Below are positions 17,884 through 56,415 of a DNA stretch of 64,000 bases, piece by piece. Made by a program: the position numbers and the translations under genes. Where the stretch lies: contig NC_060248.1 in NCBI RefSeq assembly GCF_921293095.1, forward strand, positions 74,345,243-74,409,242, written 5' to 3'. The notes beneath the pieces were generated by a model. The model did no database searches. It was not told the origin of the DNA and saw only the letters and a program-made list of their open reading frames with translations. How positions within the stretch are numbered: position 1 is the first letter of the stretch; each line of letters starts with the position of its first letter. Source of the stretch: Ischnura elegans. Lineage: Eukaryota > Arthropoda > Insecta > Odonata > Coenagrionidae.

Positions 17884-19697
17884 AAAAACGAAGTTGAGTC
17901 ATTCATTCAAATTGCTCGGCAAATTCCACAAATAAACCATCAACGTGATCTCTCATTTCAAGCCATCTCAAGAGCTTCCTCTTTCGATGAAAATAGCTTT
18001 CTAAGAAATCTACCTATAGTGCGTAGTTGTTACCAAGGGCAGACTATATTAATATAGATGTATATAACTTTATGTCCTTATTTTATGGACCCCATGTAAC
18101 TCAATTTCCTAAGTCTGTAACTTAATGAATGTTTTAAAGAAGAATGTGGCTTTATCCAGACATTTTTTTCAATTTCCTATGAGGCCAAAATTTATTACAA
18201 ATGTGGAAAAATTAATAAAATTTCGGATTATAAAATCATAGCTCCTTTTGTATTATCAGTACAAACTCCATGTAAACGGGTATAGAATTTCCAAATCAAG
18301 AGCTGCAGATATAGCTCGAAAATTTTTTGTATGAATGACCCTTATTGCGAGTAGATACTATCAAACTAGGTATAAAAATTATAGGTTGAAAATTAAAAAA
18401 AAAATCTTAACTCCCTTACACTTCCAGGGAAACTCCCCATTAACTTTGAATGAAATTTTCAAAGCAGTGTCCGCAACTTTTAGCAGAAAATTGTTTAGCT
18501 TTAATAAACCTTAACAAGAGGGATGGGAATGTATTTATCCCTGTTTTTTAGAATGTGTTTTTCTTATGAGATTTTCTAATGCCATTTTGAATTCAGGAAA
18601 GGAGCATTATTTTCTCTTTTCATTTGATATATGTGATTTTAATTTTCATATCTAGGTAGATAAGTAAATATAGTTTTTATTACATAAATATATTTTTCTC
18701 TCTGATGATATCTTCCGTAAATAATGCTGTTATAATTATAAGACAATTAATTTTTCCCTAAAATTTACAATAGCCAATTTATCCGGTAACATCGTATTCT
18801 GGGATAGGGTATAGGGTGGTTTCCTATTATTTTTTTATTACCTAAATCGAAATATTATTACTCCTGGAGTACGTATTTCACGCCTTTAGATTTTTAAATG
18901 ACGATATCTATTTTTCGCGATTAAATGAAAAGTGAAAATTTTCTAGCGCGCGAAAACGCGACGCGTAAGTATGAATGTCGGGAAATCTCTCCGTGTGACA
19001 TATTTCTGGTTCCCGCTGCCGCCGTGAGGTGACCTTGAGGCGAGTTGAGCGCTGATACGACGCAGGCTGCTAGCGGGTAGCTGAGTACCCTGCTGGCTGG
19101 TAGCGCTTGGCTTAAATAAGGATTACACAGGCCAACAATAAAAAAATTTTTTTTTGGTGCCGGGAGTTTTTGAGCTGATATTAACAATATGTGTGGTGCT
19201 GAATCCAAATATGATATCCGTTTTTATATAACAGTTCTACTTTTTTTAGATACGGCGCATTTTATGATTAGATTCTTTCAAATATTTGATATATTTCAGA
19301 AAATACTTTTCAAATTTAAAGCAATCTATAAATAAACTAATTCATAATCACTCTGCAATATTTACTTTGAAAATCACCTTTATACCTTTGAGAAAGGGGT
19401 TGGGGAGGATTTGGCGTGTTTGAAGAAGAGGGAGACAGGCGTACAGAGTGGAGACAGTGGGAAAATATACAACTGAGGGATGTGGGAAACCCACGGTGGA
19501 AATGGACTCTAGTAATTACTATAGAATAACGACACGTGGGAAGAATAACAGAAAAGTGGAGAAGAGTAAAAAAGGGTGGATAGGGTAAAAAGAGAGCGTG
19601 TCTTTGAAAATGGAGATGCGGGAGTAAGTAAGCAAAAAGGGGATTTCCGAAAACAAATGGTCAAATTCTCAAAGTTTTTGTAAAGCAACCTCTAAAA

Positions 19698-21749
19698 ATG
19701 AGCTCAATTCGAAGAAGCTGAGTAAATCATTGTGATGTGCTTTGTTACATTTGTGGGGAATATACTTTAAAAGAAAATAGGAAAAACATTACAGACCTTG
19801 TGAAACGTGCGTACCTAGGATATTTTGGTATTCAGCTTGGTGACGAAGGTAAAAAGTGGGCACCGCATGCTGTGTGTAAAACATGTACAGTACATCAGCG
19901 GTAGTGAACTACAGGAAAAAGGAAAAGTTTAAAGTTTGGTGTGACAATGGTTTGGAGAGAACCAACAAACCATATTGACGACTGTTATTTTTGCATGCTA
20001 AATGTTTCGGGAATTGATCGAAACAATCGCCACAAGTGGAAATATCCAGATTTGCCTTCAGCTAGACGCCCGGTACCCCATTCAGAAGAAATCCCGATCC
20101 TAATATTTCAGACATTACGAGATGTATGTGAGGATCAATATGAGCTATGTGAACACATTCCTGATGCTATTGGCGATAGTGACAGTGACTACGAGGCAGT
20201 ATCAACAAATCCTCAACTATTTAATCAAGATGAACTAGGCGACCTTGTTAGAGAATTGAACTTATTGAAGGAAGCATCTGCACTACTAGCTTCAAGGATG
20301 CATGAAAAGAATTCAATGGAACAAGGTACAAAAATTAATTTTTATCGCACAAGGGAAAAGGATCTGCTACCCTTCTTTACTCAAGAAGAAAATCTTATAT
20401 TTTTTTTAGACATTAGAGGTCTTCTGAAAGGAATGGGACTACCGCAATGTGAAGCTAGTGATTGGCGTTTGTTCATTGATAGCTCCAAGCGTAGTTTAAA
20501 ATGTGTTCTTCACAATGTTAACAAGTTTGGCTCAATACCAATACTCAACTGAAATGAAAGAAGAGTATGATACAATAGTATTGGTCTTACAGAAGATAAA
20601 ATACCAGGGACATCGCTAGGTGATTTGTGTAGATTTAAAAATGGTGAACTTTCTTCTTGGGCAGCAATTTAGCAACACAAAATATCCTTGATCTCTGCAT
20701 TTCTTCCGGGTTTCCTTCCGCGTCAGCTTGTTTGTAGACAACAACCCTTCGACCTGAAGACGCTGGTTTAAAAATTGTGAACTTTCTTCTTGGGCAGCAA
20801 TTCAATGGAACAAGGTACAAAAATTAATTTTTATCGCACAAGGGAAAAGGATCTGCTACCCTTCTTTACTCAAGAAGAAAATCTTCCCTTCGACCGAGAA
20901 GAAATCTTCAGGCCCTTCGACCTGAAGACGCTGGTAGGATAGCCAGCGAAACTGTTGTCTACGAACAAGCTGACGCGGAAGGAAACCCGGAAGAAATGCA
21001 GAGATCAAACCATCGCCGCGGAAACCTACGTTCTAACACAAAATATCCTTGTTTCTTATGCCTCTGTGCTAGCAGGGACAGACAAACCACTGGATTAAGA
21101 AGGAGTGGTCAGAGAGAGAAAACTTAATTGTTGGGTAAAAACATTATTGCTGAGTCTTTAGTAAACGGGAGAAAATCACCTTACCGCCCCTTCATGTTAA
21201 ACTAGGCCTAATGAAGCAATTTGTAAAGGCTCTTGACAAGGATGGGCCATGCTTCGGCTACATAAGAATAAAAATGCCGCAGATAAGTATAGAAAAACTT
21301 AAAGCTGGTAGTTTTGATGGGCCACAAATGAGACAACTTACAAAGGATCCTGCTTTGTCAAGTCAATGAATAAGATTGAAAAAAACAGTTGGATTTCATG
21401 GATTTCATTTGTTGAGGTAATAAAAAATTTTCTAGGAAATCACAAACGAGAGAATTATCTTGAGCTGGTAAACAATATGCTCACTAACTTCAAATCACTT
21501 GGATGTAATATGAGCATAAAAGTTCACTACCTACACAGTCACTTAGACAGTTTTCCTAAAAATTTAGGTGACACAAGTGAAAAACAAGGTGAATGATTTC
21601 ATCAGAAAATCAAAAGAATGGAAGATCGCTACCAAGGAAGATGGGATAACCATATGATGGCAGATTACTGCTGGTGCTTAAAACGAGACTGTTTTAACAA
21701 AGTGCACGCAATAAAATCGCGCAAAAGAAGCTTCCGAAATGTTGAGTGA
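19698..21749 (+). pseudogene. Decayed transposon gene, uncharacterised zinc-binding family
   Basis: Coding remnants in order: ATG at 19698 with an in-frame stop seven codons on, CDVLCYICGEYTLKE, YFGIQLGDEGKKWAPHAVC, then the open part 19941-20552 with TMVWREPTNHIDDCYFCM, PSARRPVPHSEE, LVRELNLLKEASALLASR, FIDSSKRSLKCVL. After a frameshift come MVNFLLGQQFSNTKYP, CFLC, LPPLHVKLGLMKQFVKALD, NFLGNHKRENYLELVNNML, HYLHSHLDSFPKNLG and MEDRYQGRW, ADYCWCLKRD, ending at TGA 21747-21749. I recognise the block order from a multicopy family in insects and cnidarians that is annotated only as uncharacterised protein. Cys pairs (CYICG, CYFC, CFLC) suggest zinc binding, and a transposase role is inferred from its place inside a terminal-repeat element. 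Stops, frameshifts and an internal rearrangement (20690-21045) make it dead. Confidence 0.8.
20690..21045. repeat. Complex insertion inside the transposon pseudogene
   Basis: The gene is interrupted between two copies of AACACAAAATATCCTTG (ending 20690 and about 21051). The insert holds an inverted pair (20690-20743 against 20953-21006), a second copy of the gene's own segment 20311-20396 at 20800-20885 with no visible difference over 86 bases, a copy of the 20639-20672 segment at 20768-20801, and a hairpin CGCTGG...CCAGCG. This patchwork looks like template switching rather than simple transposition. Confidence 0.75.
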
Positions 21750-21862
21750 CGTTTTTACGTCTTTTTTTCTTTAAAGTGTTTTATTTCAGTAAAAAATGTT
21801 ACTGTTTGTATTCAATTTTATTGTAAAACTGTTGTAACTGTAGGTGATTAAACATTCCTATT

Positions 21863-21868
21863 AATAAA
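21863..21868 (+). terminator. Poly(A) signal AATAAA of the transposon gene
   Basis: AATAAA about 115 bases after the last recognisable codon block of the pseudogene and still inside the element, so the element brought its own 3' end signal. Confidence 0.5.
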
Positions 21869-22427
21869 TCAAGTCTTTATATTTTGTGGGTTTTATCATT
21901 TATGTAATTATCCCATATCATCATATTGAACATATGTTTACGTAAGTAACAACATCTGATTCTTGAAAACTAGAGCTGATAGGAAAAAATAAATATCATA
22001 TTTGGATTCAGCACTCCAATTATACTTGAAATCAGCTTTAAAAGCTCCGGCACCAAAACCACTGTTGACCTGTGTTATTAATACCTTATCAAATGAAGAA
22101 AACTTTCCGACCTTAGCCAGTTTTAATAAGTGATTATTAAGACATGTTTCCCTGAGCTCTGCGCCTCATGCATGCATTGGTAACCTCAGACGACGTATAA
22201 CTCCTATCTTCTCGTATAGAAACTAGGTCCCTGTGACGTCACGTGGAGTGGTATCGCATGGGCGCCAATCTGGCCCTTTTCAAATGAGGATAAAAATGGA
22301 CCATTGCCATTCGTCTAAACCGGTATTTCTAAAACGAAATAATTTGTATATTATGAATACAGTAATGGTGGGTAACGAATCGCAATCAATGAATTTCGTT
22401 TTCTTTGATGAAGGAAACTACCCTATT

Positions 22428-29257: not shown

Positions 29258-31624
29258 GATTCCGCCGTCCGCCAATATATGAGGAAAATATAAGTCTGTC
29301 ACGGCCATATATCCAGTACGTCGACCGCGATGAATATTCTTTGTATCTAAAGGTGAGCTCTGAGAGCACAAAAAATGTATGGAAGCGTGGTATCTCTAAT
29401 TTTGAGAATAAAAAAATTGGCGGTTTCTCCAAGCAAGCTCGCAATGTGCCAAATACAAAAGAATCGCCGCTTCCTCAAACTGGAGCCCAACAGATTGGAA
29501 CATGTCGCTTGGTCAATCCCCCTGGAATTAGCTACGTTCCTTCAAAGCCTCCCGGTTTGAACGTCGAAGTTCCTGAGTTTTATCCTCGGCAGGACGACAT
29601 GACGCTTGGGCAAGAAGTATCGAGGCCGTATTTCCCATCAGGTTCATTTGCTGATTTTCCGAAATCCCTTTTCCCGTACATAGGTGCTGCAAATGAAGAT
29701 AGAAAAATATCTTTTAATACGAACGTCAATTCTGTCAATAGCCCTGGACATGTCTCTGCGGCACAAAAGCATAACTCTCCTCAACATTGCATGCAGTCGG
29801 ATTTCCGAGGACAAACACTGAAGCAAATCCAGCAAACTTATTTGCAGAACCAAGCACTTCACGCTTTACAGCAGCAGCAACAGCAGACTTTACAGTCTCA
29901 TCAGCCTCAGCCGCATAACCTTCCCAGTAATTACGTGATCCCGACAATGCAGAAACCCCAATCTCCAGTTTTCACTGGATCTGAGCAGCCTACCGTTTCT
30001 GGGCGGCAACCTATGACTTCCGGAACGTCACTGGAGCATCAAATGTGGATGGCAAACTTTCTGAGAATCTACTACCAGCAGCAGTACTATCAAGCATTGT
30101 CTCAAATGGATCAATCGATGCATTCTATATTCACTCCTTCAAGTCTTCAGTATAATACATCGGAATTGGCGAGTCAATTTCCCCCTAAAACTAATTACGA
30201 GCAGAAATCACCTCCCAAAGAGCCACAAAAGGGTGATTCAACAATAAATGATGTCTTATTGATAGATAAGCCGATGGTAGAGGAAAAAGACGAGCCTAGC
30301 TCGTCTCCGCCGAAGAGCATACCAGTGTATCAGCGACCTCCTGAATCTTACAATTTCACTCTAAACGACAATAATAGTCGTCGACGGAATGGGAGTGGTG
30401 GAGGAGGTGGTGGGGCTGTGTTGGCCAACTTGATTGTTTTGACCAAGGGTGGAGGCCGATGGAAGAGCTCTCGGCACCAGGTCCCGGACCATGGTCCCAA
30501 AGAAAAAATAGTAAAAGATAATAATTGCGGTAAATTAGAGAAATCGGAGATTCCTGGATATGACGCTTTGGACGATAAAGGAGTGAAGTCAAGTGCAGCT
30601 AGCTGTCTGCCAGATATTTCCGAAAACTTATCACTAATTAGCTCCCATGAAACTTCATTAATTGATAGCAATCGAAATGAGGATACGTCTGAAGGAATAT
30701 CAACTATTGTATTTGAGTCTAGCTCGGCCAGTAGCGTAGTTAATGTTGAAATGCCTAACAATGCTTCTACAGTCTCGCCAGATACAATCGACTTCACCGA
30801 AGCGTACAGCCCCAGTGCGGGAGGCGGTGGAAGTATAGAAAGCGAATTTACAATTCAGGCTCATTTGTCAGATGATAGGAAAGGTATCGGTAAAACAATG
30901 ACGTCAACGCCCATCAAAGACGGGATTTGTGAGGTAGAAAATGCTGACTCGTTAAAATGGCCCGATTTAACACTTCACGACGAAGATGTGGGATTAGGTG
31001 AAGAAATAGCTGATCAAAAGAAAAGAAATGAGGAAGTTGTTGTTCAGGATACTTCAGCTGAACGAAGTGTGAAATTAGTACAAGCGAGTAAGAGTCTGGA
31101 GCTCAATTTTCTCCAGGCTAGTATGATAAAGGAAACTATATCTGATCCCTCTTTTCCTCCGATACGAAGTAAAAAATCTCGTAGTTCTCGTTTGAAGTCT
31201 GCGGAATCTGTCTTGGCGCCAGCATTAAATGTCTCAAGCCATCGTCGGTTGTACAGCGACGTTTTGTCTACCAGAGCAGGAATTGTGCCATCCAATTGTA
31301 CGAAACCCCCGGCATCAGAGGCATCATCAAGCATAGATAGCTTAGAAAAACGTTTTAAAGAGTTGGAAATACTGGCGATTGAGCAGTATCAGTCTCAGTC
31401 ATCCCTAGACAGTGTTTCTCGGATTTATCACGACTTAGAAATGCAGGCTGTGGAACAGTACCGATCCAGCTGTGAAAGCGAGACGAAGATAGTCGCAGAG
31501 CGAAGTCCAATCTCTGTGAAAGAAGGATCCACAGCGCCCGTGAAAGAACTAATGTCTTCCAATTCTCTAAGCCTTGATGATGCCAAAAGGAGGCCTTCTT
31601 CGTCACGTGCTGGTCCTAAAGAAG
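29258..31624 (+). CDS. Large internal exon, unknown protein with PAM2-like motif
   Basis: The acceptor TATTGCAG (ending 29257) is the only AG inside the open frame, and the exon ends at donor GAAG then GTAAAT (31625). It enters in phase 1 and leaves in phase 1. The 789-residue piece starts FRRPPIYEENISLSRPYIQY. A PAM2-like motif LNVEVPEFYP lies at 29557-29586 (consensus LN-x-x-A-x-E-F-x-P, the peptide that docks on the MLLE domain of poly(A)-binding protein), here with Val in place of Ala. Then follow a Gln-rich tract (about 29865-29900), a YYQQQYYQ patch, a Gly run (about 30394-30415) and long disordered Ser-rich sequence. Near the end two helices repeat: FKELEILAIEQYQS and YHDLEMQAVEQYRS. 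No catalytic domain is visible. Frames on the minus strand are shadows. Confidence 0.85.
29557..29586 (+). other. PAM2-like poly(A)-binding-protein docking motif
   Basis: Codons read LNVEVPEFYP preceded by KPPG. The key Leu, Asn, Glu, Phe and Pro are in the spacing of the PAM2 consensus, and the usual Ala is Val. It is embedded in disordered sequence, as PAM2 motifs normally are. Binding is predicted, not shown. Confidence 0.55.
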
Positions 31625-32729
31625 GTAAATACTTAAATTTTAAGCGAAATAGAGTATAATGCCAATGTTTATAATGCTCCTGAAAATATTCTATAAACAT
31701 TATATTGCCGTCATATTTCTCTTTCGCCAAACTAATTTTGCTATCCTTTTCCATTCCTGTATTATAAGCATGACATTCCAATCTCCACCTCAAATTTCAT
31801 GGATCAGAGTTTGAGATTTTTCTCAACGCTGTTTTCCTTATCATTTCCGTGTTTACCCTAATTTTTCCTTTTTGAATCGAATTCTTCGGCCATTTTATCC
31901 TTTGTATAAATTCAATAACAATTTAAAAATTATGTCAGCCACGTGAACTTTCATATGTACATAGTCTTTTTATGTCGCTTTTGTCCTTTTTTCCTGCTGA
32001 AATGCGTTTTTAAGTTCAACTTTATTCTTTTAACCCACTTATGTTCTGATGCATTTTGAAATGCGCTAAGAACCCCTTGCTTTATGCCATCCTCTATTGA
32101 ATATGATTTTGAGCATTAAATAATTTGGGGCTTACGTCTGGGCGTAGTGGATAATTTGAGACTGGAAAAGTCTATTTTCTAATTTGCGTTTGTCGTGGGT
32201 GAAAGAGTAGCACGACCTGGATAATTTTTACGATTTTCATTGCCAACCTTGAAATTGTCTAATACTTTCAATAAATTTGAATTCCTCCAGCCATTGGCCT
32301 TCATGATGGATAGGGAGGTGTAGTTACGCGAGTATCCTAAAGGTTAGCCGGTTGACCCTAGAGGCTATATGTATATTGTTGGCCCGGACTACTCGGCGAG
32401 CCGAATTGTTCGGGTGTAAACTTTCGATATTTCCGACAGCCAGTTGAAAGCGGGCGGGTGTGGAACGTACCGAAGTCGCCTTGTAGGGCTCAATAGTTGA
32501 GACGCTGTGATAAACAACTCACTTTGCCCTCCTTTCCCCGTGTTCACATATCATGTCTTAAGCTTACACAAGAAGTGTAGAATCCAATTAAAATTTAATT
32601 TGCATAGTGCACCTTACGTTTTATGTATTCATTAATTTTTATTCACGCCGCCTTAAATAGCGTAACTAGTATTGTGTATCTTATATTTGATTCACTCTCC
32701 TTTAACTTTTAATACTGATTAATTTTTAG

Positions 32730-33720: not shown

Positions 33721-34664
33721 AAAATTAAGTTCGTGTTTCTTTTACCCTGCATTTATAATTTAGTTTGGAGGATGTCACTGCTGAGTAATGTTACAAGTGA
33801 AATCTTACTTTTACTCGTATTTAGATTTGACCATTCACTTAATTTTCTACTTTGAGATCTTTACTTTCTTAACGTGATGCATCATTCCCGCTTGATCGGC
33901 CGAACTTAGTGCTTTCCATGTGATAATATTTGGTTAAAACATACATTGTCATCATTTAATTTTCAGGGTATGTAGAGTGTTCGGTCAAATTTCACCTTTA
34001 TAACAAGTAGAAAAAATATAGTTACCCTTGAAAAAATACTGGCGTAAATTTTATTGGCTTATATTCATGTGCGGATCGTCTGAATAACTTGAAAACCTCC
34101 TAGGGCTGTACGACCTTGTTGGGGTCACGGTTGGAACATAACAAATAAAAGTGACTTAACTATGTTCTCTATACCTAATGTCTTCATAAGTGACATTTTC
34201 ACGTGGAAATGTAGACTTTTTTCTAATTAAAAATATTTAATATAGAATTCCCTTATGCAAATTTTTATCTTGAGGTTGGACACAAATTATGGGGCCTAAG
34301 GGCAAAGTGATTCATAAATAAATCTTGCCATACCTAAAATGAAGTGCACAATAGTTTTTTTTCCGAGTTGCCTGTCAAATCTCACCAAAATCGCATTAGT
34401 GTTTGTGCTTTTGAGTTCAAAATGTCACCACTGAAGACTGTAGTGGTTCTGAAATATGTCTGGTTAATATGACTATTAATGGTTTTTAGGTAATAATAGG
34501 AACTCTAGCTTGATTGGTGCGTTTTAAGGGTCTGTAACATGTAATCTATAGCTCATGTCATTAAGGGACCGCGCTTATTTTTGCTAGCGTGCCTCATACC
34601 ACTGTCATTCGAAGTCTGATAAATTATCACTAAAATGCAATTTTATATCTCTATCTTCCCCGAG

Positions 34665-37043
34665 GCCTCTACCACGGCTGGCACCAAATCCGAAGGCAGG
34701 AAAGAGAGCCCCACTCAAGGAAAAGGTACAGGGGTTCCAGAGGCCTGGGTTCCAAATCTCGTCCACGATGATAATCCTAACAAAAGTGGAGAAAACGCAG
34801 ATAAGAATTTATCTGACCGTGTCAAAAACAAGAGCGCTGGTAAGAAAGGCGCGAGCATTGAAAGTAATAAGAGTCAACGAACATCCAGCAAAAATAATTT
34901 GGCCCAAGGAGCTACCCAAACATCTCAGACTTGCACGTTGCCTGGTAACTGTAATAAAAATTTAGGAAAAACGGTATCAGCGAGTAATTTAAATGAGAAA
35001 CCGGGCGGGCGTGGTAAGAAGAAGGCTGTCAAAGACCTAGGGCTTGGAGCAGAAGCCAGCGTACCGGAGGCTAAGTTGAAAGAAAAGTCCAAGAGCTCAT
35101 TGGAAAAGAGTGCTTCAACGGAGGATAATAGGAATAAGAGTGATCGTAAGAAGAAGGATGCTTTGGGCCAAAAATCGAAAGAATTGGAATCGCTGTTGAC
35201 GCCGACTCAGTTAATAGATAAATTGCGATGCGGAGTGACAGAGAGCTTGTCGGTGGAGCAAAGAGGCCAACGTTCCGAGGCGAAGACTGCTTTGAGAAAT
35301 TTAGTGGCTAAATCTTGCGAAAATTTAAAGATTTCTGCCGTTAAGGATGGCTCGGATAAAGACAAATGCAAATATTCTAAGAAAGAAAAATCCTTGGATC
35401 AAGTAATTGAAGAAGCTAAGACCCAATTGTTGCTAACAAAATCAAAGAAAAACTCGGAGCATTGTGAGGTAGAAAAAAATGTAGGTGATAAAAATGATTC
35501 TATTGGCGATGACAGTAAGAGAGGCTCCAACAAAAAGAGGAGGAGAGGTAACAGACGAAGAAATAGAAAGGCCCTTCAGCAAGAAACTGGTTTAGATGCA
35601 GAAGCGACGAAAGCAGTTGAAAACCACTGCGAGAACACGTTGGAATTTGGGAAAGGAGATACCCATCGAGAGAATATGATTGAATCAGTGGATATAGATA
35701 GCTCGGTAAACCAGAACGAGCCATTTAACGCCAAACTCCACGTTGAAAATCAGTCTATCTCGATGCCTTGTGCTCGCAACTCATTGCAAAACATTTCACT
35801 GGAGAAAAATGGAATCGCCGACAAGGCTCACGAGGATACTGCATCTAACCCTATTAAGTGTTCCTCAGAGTGTGGAATTTTTGAGATTCATGATAAAGGT
35901 GTTTCCGGAAAGAGGAAGAAAAGAAACAGGAAAGCAAAGGCTAGTAAGAGTTCAGAAGATGTTTTCCCTCTTAATATCAGCGGAGACCTATCTCACGTTC
36001 CAAAGTCCACTCTGTTATGCAATAAAATGATCGACAATAAGAAGCTTCCTATCCTAGCTGACGATATATCTTGCCAAGAAAACTACCGACAACCGTCCAG
36101 AAGTATTTCTGCAAAAACTCTTAAGGACTGTGATGAAGTAGAAAAATTGCCATCAGAAAACTGCACCGTAGAATGCAATCCTAATACGCATTTGACGAAG
36201 AAAAATTCTTCTATCGAATTTGAATTTTCTGTCTCTCCTCCTGAAACTATGGATGAACTGCACTGTGACCATGATGAACTTTTGGGGCCAGAAGATATCT
36301 CGTTAAACCTCGGATGTTCTTCTACAGTTGGTGAAATGGCGGCGCTAATATCTAGACGCATTAAAAGAGGTAAAAAGTCAAAATTGCAGAAGAAGCGTTT
36401 GGTTCAAGATAACCTCGGTTGTGAGATATTCGAAGATTGCAATCCTTTAAACGATGTCGGTGCTACCGGTAGAGGGTCTGAGAACGCTTCCTTCATGACG
36501 ATGGGCATTGGTTGTCGCAGTTCAACTATGGGGGATGAAGATATTGAAACGCAGCTTTTGATTCCGAGTTTATGTGAAGATCCATGTCCAGAAAGTATCT
36601 GTGATTATGAATTTGCTAAAATCAACGTCGAGGACAGTCCTTTTCGTTCAGTGGAAATACAATCATGCGAGGATAACATCGAGTCACATTTGGGTTGCGA
36701 GAAGCGTGTAGACACTGTGATTGAATTTGGAGAAAATTCTGGTTCCAGTTTCGTTCCCTTAGGGAGCCATTTTGGAAGCTCAGCCCATTCTTCCGTCATC
36801 GTTAATGCTCCAACTTTACCCAACCAGGGTATGATGTCTCAATATACTTCCATGTCGCTGTCGAGGACTTCAAATGAATCGACGCCAAGAACACCCCAGT
36901 CGACGGAATCTGGCAAGTCGACCTCTTCTTCTCCATCTGTCCTCAGTAAATTGATGCGTAGCTCCAAGAAAACACGAAAGTCAAAAGCCGCTGGCTCGGG
37001 TGGAGTATGCAGTCGATCTCCACCTTCGTGTGCCCTTCAATAG
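34665..37043 (+). CDS. Terminal exon of the same gene, Lys/Arg- and Ser-rich
   Basis: The acceptor TATCTTCCCCGAG ends at 34664 and the exon continues in phase 0 from 33268: ASTTAGTKSEGRKESPTQGK. It runs 792 residues to TAG at 37041-37043. Three strongly basic clusters look like nuclear or RNA-binding signals: KKRRRGNRRRNRK (about 35537-35575), GKRKKRNRKAKASK (about 35907-35948) and RRIKRGKKSKLQKKR (about 36355-36400). The tail is Ser/Thr-rich (SSPSVLSKLMRSSKKTRKSK). No enzyme or zinc-finger domain is visible. Together with the PAM2-like motif the composition suggests an RNA-associated scaffold protein. The gene is not recognised. Confidence 0.85.
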   Translation, partial: ASTTAGTKSEGRKESPTQGKGTGVPEAWVPNLVHDDNPNKSGENADKNLSDRVKNKSAGKKGASIESNKSQRTSSKNNLAQGATQTSQTCTLPGNCNKNLGKTVSASNLNEKPGGRGKKKAVKDLGLGAEASVPEAKLKEKSKSSLEKSASTEDNRNKSDRKKKDALGQKSKELESLLTPTQLIDKLRCGVTESLSVEQRGQRSEAKTALRNLVAKSCENLKISAVKDGSDKDKCKYSKKEKSLDQVIEEAKTQLLLTKSKKNSEHCEVEKNVGDKNDSIGDDSKRGSNKKRRRGNRRRNRKALQQETGLDAEATKAVENHCENTLEFGKGDTHRENMIESVDIDSSVNQNEPFNAKLHVENQSISMPCARNSLQNISLEKNGIADKAHEDTASNPIKCSSECGIFEIHDKGVSGKRKKRNRKAKASKSSEDVFPLNISGDLSHVPKSTLLCNKMIDNKKLPILADDISCQENYRQPSRSISAKTLKDCDEVEKLPSENCTVECNPNTHLTKKNSSIEFEFSVSPPETMDELHCDHDELLGPEDISLNLGCSSTVGEMAALISRRIKRGKKSKLQKKRLVQDNLGCEIFEDCNPLNDVGATGRGSENASFMTMGIGCRSSTMGDEDIETQLLIPSLCEDPCPESICDYEFAKINVEDSPFRSVEIQSCEDNIESHLGCEKRVDTVIEFGENSGSSFVPLGSHFGSSAHSSVIVNAPTLPNQGMMSQYTSMSLSRTSNESTPRTPQSTESGKSTSSSPSVLSKLMRSSKKTRKSKAAGSGGVCSRSPPSCALQ

Positions 37044-42200: not shown

Positions 42201-42869
42201 AATAGGGTGGTTTCCTATTATTTTTTTATTGCCTAAATCGAAAGATTATTACTCCTGGAGTACGTATTTCACGCTTTTAGATTTTTAAATGACAAAATCT
42301 ATTTTTCGCGATTAAATGAAAAGTGAAAAATTTCAAGCGCGCGAAAACGCGACGCTTAAGTATGAATGCCGGGAAATCTCTCAGTGCGTCATATTTCTGG
42401 TTCCCCCTCCCGCCCGGTGAGGTGACCTTGAGGCGAGGCTTAGCGCTGATACGTCGCAGGCTGCTAGCGGGTAGCTTAGTACCCTGCTGGATGGTAGCGC
42501 TTGGCTTAAATAAGGATTATTCATACCTTATCAAACGAGGAAAACTTTCCGACCTTAGCCAGTTTTAATAAGTGATTATTAAGACATGTTTCCCTGAGCT
42601 CTGCGCCTCATGCATGCATTGGTAATTTCAGGCGATGTATAACTCCTATCCTCTCGTGTAGAAACTAGGTCCCTGTGACGTCACGTGGAGTGGCATCGCA
42701 TGGGCGCCAATCTGGTCCTTTTCAAATGAGGATAAAAATGGACCATTGCCATTCGTTTAAACCGGCATTTCTAAAACGAAATAATTTGTATATTATGAAT
42801 ACACTAATGGTGGGTAACGAGTCGCAATTATTGCCTTTTGTTTTCTTTGGTGAAGGAAACTACCCTATT
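42201..42869 (+). mobile_element. AATAGGGT-family MITE, copy C, intact (669 bp)
   Basis: Uninterrupted element with ends AATAGGGTGGTTTCC and GGAAACTACCCTATT. It is about 90% or more similar by eye to the outer parts of 18810-22427. Here GGCTTAAATAAGGATTATTC, then ATACCTTATC is continuous, showing the empty site of the 19126 transposon. It contains TGACGTCACGTGG, a palindromic CRE-like motif conserved in all copies. There is no conserved reading frame across the three copies. Confidence 0.85.
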
Positions 42870-55631: not shown

Positions 55632-56415
55632 TCACTCTGGATATTCTATTTCAAATAGAGCCTTCTGAATTTGGAGCTTTAGTAGTGCTCTTTGTTTAGG
55701 GGTCAGTCTCTGCATTGAAGCTGCAATACTTGAACAAAACAGTTCTTCCTCAGTTTGTTTTTTCCACCCACATTGGCAAGCACATTTGTTAGCGGGAGAA
55801 ACATTGTGTTTAGAGGCAACAATTACTTTACTGTCTGCAATGTGATTGTCTCTGTCTTTACTCTCCGATGTTGATGCCATGGTTTGGTCTACGTCTATCA
55901 TTTTACTTTGGTTGAAAGTATTTTTCTCACTTTCAGTGCTGACAATGACCAAATTTTGTCCACTATGCATCCCACTGCTAATAGTTGCCTCATTTTGATG
56001 TGAGGTTATTATTGTAGTTACTGGTGTACTTGTTATTGCTGAAGTAGATTGGTAACCACTGCTGTCTCTGCGAACTCTTTTGAGGACGGTGGTGTCTGTT
56101 GTGGATCTGGATTGTGATGCATCAAGTAGCCTCTTCTTGGATCTTGTCTCTTCTTCAGAATCACTGGAACCAATGTCAAAGGTCATGGAGTTCTCTTCGT
56201 CATTGCTGAGTGGGTCCTTCATTTGACCTTTGCTTGCTTCTCCGCAATCACTTGATGTGTCGTCATGATGGGCTGGTCGAGGCTGAATGGTTTGAGGTAT
56301 ATTGCTGTGAGTTACATTTGGTAAAAGCCATATTGGTGCACTCAAGGATGTCGTTGCTATTTGCATGTTTGAGTGGTCATCATTCAGGTAGATCATGCTC
56401 TTCGATCGATTCATG
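55632..56415 (-). CDS. MADF-BESS protein, C-terminal exon with BESS motif
   Basis: Minus-strand exon: acceptor TCTCTTGCAG ends at 56416, stop TGA at 55634-55632. The first base completes the AA left by the MADF exon, so both join in frame (AAC, then ATG AAT CGA). The 260 residues are mostly a disordered Ser/Thr-rich linker with acidic SDSEEE and basic KKR and KRVRR patches. The last 40 form a BESS motif, EELFCSSIAASMQRLTPKQR followed by LKLQIQKALFEIEY, which in this family mediates protein-protein contacts including dimerisation. A CACQCGW cluster precedes it. Family members are sequence-specific DNA-binding transcription regulators, as in Adf-1. Orthology to a named gene cannot be set. Confidence 0.85.

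Follow-up and report, generated by a model that had tools for sequence, protein, structure and literature searches.

Chapaev3 transposons, among them Merrow, Garfield and Conan, have been described as duplicating a 3-bp TWA target (TTA or TAA), inserting between A and T, ending in CAC..GTG, encoding a transposase with C(2)C, LH and H(4)H motifs and giving rise to miniature inverted-repeat transposable elements (MITEs); most have a single open frame, Merrow and Garfield having two exons, and the words asymmetr-, subterminal and spacer are absent from the searched part of the text that describes them (PMC4079192). The C(2)C and H(3-4)H motifs are common to Transib, RAG1 and CMC transposases (PMC12730594). 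Recombination signal sequences (RSS) have spacers of 12 and 23, an asymmetry that some Transibs share, and according to one review, asymmetry of the 12/23 type is known outside RAG only in some Transib elements (PMC8355894). Here we describe an element in 64,000 nucleotides of the genome of the odonate Ischnura elegans (contig NC_060248.1, positions 74,345,243 to 74,409,242 of the forward strand; the whole of this stretch is called the window). Judged from its sequence it is very probably an inactive Chapaev3-type (CMC superfamily) cut-and-paste DNA transposon, and it belongs to the first, A, of five related families in this genome whose two ends are unequally spaced.

The element shares with described Chapaev3 transposons the TWA duplication between A and T, the CAC..GTG ends, the three motifs, MITEs with the same tips and, in its sister family B, the single open frame of most of them, and has a further feature not known from them, a difference of about 10 bp between the two ends that recurs in five families of one genome. 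Literature searches, which covered few subscription journals and not Repbase and included PMC4079192, PMC3630058, PMC4411706, PMC12730594, PMC8289069 and PMC8355894, brought up no description of unequally spaced Chapaev ends. A CAC tip with a distal box at a set distance and unequal spacers is a likeness to the signals of Transib and RAG (PMC8355894, PMC4411706); lancelet ProtoRAG, too, has asymmetric ends with a CAC tip, a distal element and set spacer lengths, and differs in its spacers of 27 and 31 bp, its two-protein recombinase and its 5-bp duplication (PMC8289069). The distances are unlike those of Transib and the RSS: the boxes here begin at 65/75 and 99/109 from the tip and do not follow after 12 or 23 bp. 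The box sequences also differ from the RSS nonamer, and the 3-bp duplication is unlike that of Transib, which is 5 bp. CCAGG is an example of a Transib duplication (PMC8355894 / PMC4411706).

Results

Unequal spacing of the element ends

The window element and the parts of its ends lie as follows.

19126..22074, + strand: whole element of 2949 bp, assigned to family A of Chapaev3; the majority of other copies measure about 2570 bp
19126..19137, + strand: left tip CACAGGCCAACA, long end
22063..22074, - strand: right tip CACAGGTCAACA, short end
19200..19215, + strand: box 1 TGAATCCAAATATGAT, beginning at position 75 from the left tip
21995..22010, - strand: box 1 TGAATCCAAATATGAT, beginning at position 65 from the right tip
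19234..19244, + strand: box 2, of the GCTCTAGTTTT type with 2 mismatches, beginning at position 109 from the left tip
21966..21976, - strand: box 2 GCTCTAGTTTT, beginning at position 99 from the right tip

Throughout family A an end consists of the tip, a spacer, box 1 and, 33-34 bp further in, box 2. We measured 31 elements of this family, namely that of the window, 13 chosen by their tips and 17 of the 20 chosen by their protein (three without exact tips at both ends were left out), and box 1 starts at 75 and 65 in 23 of them; the remaining eight read 72/65 (three elements), 76/65 (two) and 77/65, 73/65 and 63/65 (one each). The same inequality recurs in the sister families: box 2 lies at 109 and 99 in family B and at 99 and 109 in family C, and box 1 at 65 and 75 in family D and at 65 at one end and about 10 further at the other in family E. 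When one end of a family was slid along its other end, the two matched best at an offset of 10 in each of A, B, C and D and of 11 in E, and two MITE copies gave 12 or 10; shuffled ends did as well as those observed in 0 of 1000 trials for each of A, B and D and in 140 of 1000 for the MITE.

Genome-wide counts were made with tip-to-box patterns that allowed 30 bases of variation in the gap; their reversed versions, run as controls, gave no match in any family. The A pattern, which also takes in MITE ends, found 721 ends; among the 100 listed, 59 have the box at 65, 20 at 75 and 21 at 64, 66, 67, 72, 73, 74, 76 or 77, and among the matches listed there are 27 pairs, 20 of them exactly 65/75 and seven combining 65 with 72, 74, 76 or 77. 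Family B, whose distances were counted one base earlier than box 1, has 34 ends (28 at 64, 1 at 63, 4 at 74 and 1 at 73), and all four of its pairs differ by 10. For C, box 2 stands at 99 in 12, at 109 in 9 and at 106 in 1 of 22 ends, eight of the nine pairs differing by 10 and one by 7. D has 72 ends, 35 at 65, 30 at 75 and 7 elsewhere; its 28 pairs comprise 25 that are exactly 65/75, the others being 65/74, 65/73 and 61/65. The 35 ends of E divide into 18 at 65 and 17 at 72-76, and three of its nine pairs differ by 10, the rest by 8, 9 or 11. Over the five families, 76 of 77 pairs thus combine a short end with a long one, all but the 61/65 pair of D, and the difference is exactly 10 bp in 60 of the 77; pairs within one family are not independent, because they descend from one element.

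Several observations weaken the case in C and E. Shuffled ends of E were as good as the real ones in 34 of 1000 trials, and its long end is commonest at 74, a difference of 9, within a range of 72-76. The ends of C match weakly outside box 2, with 401 of 1000 shuffles as good, and no box 1 could be made out at the long end. With the sliding test not significant there and box 1 seen at the short end only, family C rests on box 2 and on an 11-base identity, TTAGCTCTAGT, at 96 and 106. As an observation in the Ischnura elegans genome, unequal spacing is firm for A, B and D and, from the counts, well supported for C and E.

Copies, tips and target sites

The 12-mer CACAGGYCAACA has 2451 exact matches in the 1.72-Gb genome, its reversed control having 87, and 1395 with ATWA directly before it (reversed control, 2). 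From this family two samples were drawn. The tip-chosen sample, assembled from tips that form pairs within the first 100 listed places (every one of them on contig C1), comprises 17 elements: that of the window, 13 further A copies and three MITEs. The 20 protein-chosen copies were picked by hand from the higher-scoring part of 150 scored matches (1504 candidates). All 20 of the latter lie between two tips (at most 2 errors), so that the protein gene does belong to a delimited element, as the preliminary description had proposed. An exact 3-bp duplication, the length it had given, flanks 17 of the 20 protein-chosen copies and 15 of the 17 tip-chosen elements; combined, the samples give 32 exact duplications in 37 elements (34 of family A and three MITEs). 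TWA accounts for 28 of the 32, the other four being TCA, TAT, TTT and AAT, and 29 of the 32 exactly duplicated elements are inserted between A and T. Those copies of B, C, D and E that were read have duplications of TTA or TAA, and CAC..GTG termini are present in all five families.

The three MITEs (L022, L023 and L024; 613-617 bp) have the same 12-bp tips as family A and an exact box 1 at 64-65 at one end, and the interiors of the three read gave no blastn match to the interior of the element. Gene copies outside such repeats, unrelated genes between them and another duplication length were looked for, and nothing that refutes the delimited element came up; the MITEs, which share its tips and have unmatched interiors, qualify this. 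Two further places on C1 (L025 and L026) were dropped as elements, their 12-mer pair facing outward. Of the 100 ATWA-tip places listed, 98 are on C1 (170.6 Mb) and 35 fall within 2.5 Mb at about 159.7-162.2 Mb (G000:C1), many of them in pairs about 520-640 bp apart, as if this stretch were a hot spot for these MITEs.

The transposase and its relatives

The relatives search used a read-through of the window protein as query, and 79 of its 3307 candidates were scored. No stop-free full-length family A row is among these 79, the best having four stops; an intact A copy may be among the candidates that were not scored. Family B, the sister of A, is about 57% identical to it and has a single open frame of 563 codons. 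Searches with the B and C proteins brought up C, D and E, and the proteins of the five families are 40-59% identical to each other. In the tree A groups with B, and E joins them with support 0.87. A search for further families gave one D-like and one E-like find, each with one recognised end only. No relatives were found in viral contigs, phages or prokaryote genomes.

Aligning A, B, C and D shows no variation at the first catalytic D, at either C of C(2)C, at either H of H(4)H, at the H of LH or at the E; the second catalytic D is a D in A, B and C. The three acidic residues that the preliminary description had suggested looking for are thus kept in relatives, as in DDE transposases. All three motifs, C(2)C, LH and H(4)H, are present in B, in C, in copy L058 of A and in copy L079 of D; the other D copy and that of E have a damaged C(2)C and keep LH and H(4)H. 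The N-terminal part, where a Chapaev3 transposase would have a Chapa zinc finger, contains conserved cysteines and histidines, and the intact B protein matches the Pfam model zf-AD with E 0.0032, below cut-off; no other zinc-finger model matched the transposase. L079 has an open frame of 609 codons despite its lost second catalytic D.

Recent movement

Three copies of family C encode an identical protein of 570 aa, and a fourth is stop-free at 98%. Two of these copies were read and have different flanks with TAA or TTA duplications, and identical proteins at different sites are a sign of recent movement. In family A, four copies (L045, L051, L056 and L067) are 99.5-99.8% identical and carry the same six in-frame stops, and each has its own flanks and its own exact duplication. 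Since they share their stops and differ in insertion site, it follows that copies already broken were recently mobilised in trans; the transposase may have come from an intact A copy not seen here or from a sister family, B for instance.

The window element in its surroundings

The remaining features of the element and its target are these.

19123..19125: left target-site duplication TTA, with A before it
22075..22077: right target-site duplication TTA, with T after it
19731..20603, + strand: decayed transposase gene, putative zinc-finger part to first catalytic D, with internal stops
21342..21746, + strand: C-terminal part of the decayed transposase gene, including H(4)H and the catalytic E region, one internal TGA
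20691..21034: insertion of about 344 nt in the window copy
18811..19125, + strand: host MITE, left part, 5' of the element
22078..22427, + strand: host MITE, right part, 3' of the element
42202..42869, + strand: empty site, in another copy of the host MITE that lacks the element

Tips CACAGGCCAACA and CACAGGTCAACA are the sole two matches of the 12-mer in the window (at most 1 mismatch). At least two matches likewise occur in 8 of 100 shuffled windows, so the 12-mer tips alone prove little. Inside them is an inverted repeat of 93 nt (19152-19244 and 21966-22058), 76% complementary. The flanks read GGA-TTA on the left and TTA-TTAATACC on the right; with the element and one TTA taken out they make up a MITE copy that can be aligned over its whole length to 42202-42869, where the insertion point reads ..GGATTATTCATACC.. 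and the empty site is thus seen. The preliminary description was thus right that a delimited transposon is present, with its inverted repeat, TTA duplication and empty site; the 2451 tips in the genome against 87 reversed agree with it. Its account of this second copy (given there as 42201-42869) as a sister MITE holds in part: the empty site is there, but the sequence is not a MITE of this transposon, being another copy of the unrelated host MITE that was the target of its insertion.

The insertion of about 344 nt at 20691-21034 is peculiar to the window copy, the same place being empty in all 30 other A copies compared. It comprises exact 87-nt (87/87) and 35/36-nt copies of nearby element DNA, together with a near-perfect 56-nt inverted repeat, and it looks like templated filler from break repair, or else an assembly fault.

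Elsewhere in the window, open frames at 29341-31659 (772 codons) and 34635-37043 (802 codons), with no Pfam match above cut-off, are probably large exons of a host gene. The frame at 55632-56414 on the - strand, which ends in a BESS motif (Pfam E 9.3e-07), is a host gene.

Discussion

How the unequal ends might work can be sketched from the parts described here. A putative N-terminal zinc finger of the transposase would bind box 1 and/or box 2, the DDE domain would cut at CAC, and integration would follow with a 3-bp stagger; the synaptic complex would preferentially bring a long end together with a short one, with the additional turn of the helix leaving the boxes on the same side of the DNA, and broken copies could be served by transposase supplied from outside. 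The short and long spacing would then act, by analogy, as a pairing rule of the 12/23 kind. The main alternative, which we consider quite possible, is that an ancestral end gained a short insertion by chance and that the inequality has since been inherited as a frozen relic, with no pairing rule at all; the two readings stand at near even odds.

The spacers themselves speak on both sides. At the long end an A-run follows the tip, clear in A, B and D and reduced to AAA in C and E, as might be expected of a chance insertion, and long-end lengths vary by a few bases where short ends hardly do, again in keeping with a relic. Because A and B, and likewise A and D, have spacers that still resemble each other, some of the agreement between families is due to plain descent. 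Set against this, the short-end spacing of about 65 (box 1) or 99 (box 2) is kept across proteins that have diverged to 40-59% identity, and it is kept even where the spacer sequence has fallen to background: short-end spacers of C are 0.32-0.34 identical to those of A, B or D (0.45 to those of E), whereas its short-end box 1, in register, reaches 0.63-0.68 with A, B, D and E, and its short-end box 2 reaches 0.65-0.82 with A, B and D and 0.35 with E. The long end, moreover, is found on the 5' side of the gene in A and B but on its 3' side in C, D and E (polarity being read from one copy each for B and E and two each for C and D), which is awkward for a single inherited insertion. Two considerations count against a pairing rule: the spacing may come from one ancestor, so that five families are not five independent cases, and the asymmetry may have no bearing on function.

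The assignment to Chapaev3 is less evenly poised. It follows from the agreement of the ends, the TWA duplication, the A/T site, the residues D, D and E and the three motifs with the published signature (PMC4079192). What tells against it is partly the nature of the comparison, the placement having been made by published description, and partly the state of some copies. In L079 and L081, the two copies of family D, E and K stand in place of the second catalytic D, and L081 lacks the first catalytic D too; the copy of family E has damage in the region of the second D and C(2)C, so the catalytic triad rests on A, B and C. Searches of Pfam, NCBIfam and the PDB found no transposase: Pfam gave zero matches to the six window protein fragments and three to the intact B protein (zf-AD, WHD_MCM8 and Myb), none of which reached its cut-off; NCBIfam gave no match; and the PDB, searched by sequence and by profile, gave three chance-level matches only (E 0.5 to 1.4).

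That silence of the libraries is what a new superfamily would have in its favour. The preliminary description, which knew the protein as an unclassified multicopy family, had put forward such a superfamily as a candidate; this was not borne out, since the termini, the TWA between A and T, C(2)C, LH and H(4)H match Chapaev3 (PMC4079192), and with the testable Chapaev3 hallmarks present we regard a new superfamily as very unlikely. A PIF/Harbinger-type element, which would share the 3-bp TWA duplication (canonical Harbinger elements make 3-bp duplications; PMC12730594), is most improbable, given that tips of the CAC..GTG kind characterise CMC, as do C(2)C, LH and H(4)H, and that no Pfam transposase model matched the six window fragments or the intact B protein. 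The family is a known type and not a new class, and its multicopy protein is now tied to Chapaev3.

Chapaev3 in general might even obey a rule of one helical turn, under which a short and a long end must synapse as in the 12/23 pairing of RAG, although we think this unlikely. If it is true, unequal spacing would be an old property of the CMC-Transib-RAG lineage, predating RAG2 and V(D)J recombination. The difference of about one turn, together with the naturally intact transposase genes of families B and C, would make both the age and the purpose of unequal ends testable outside immunity.

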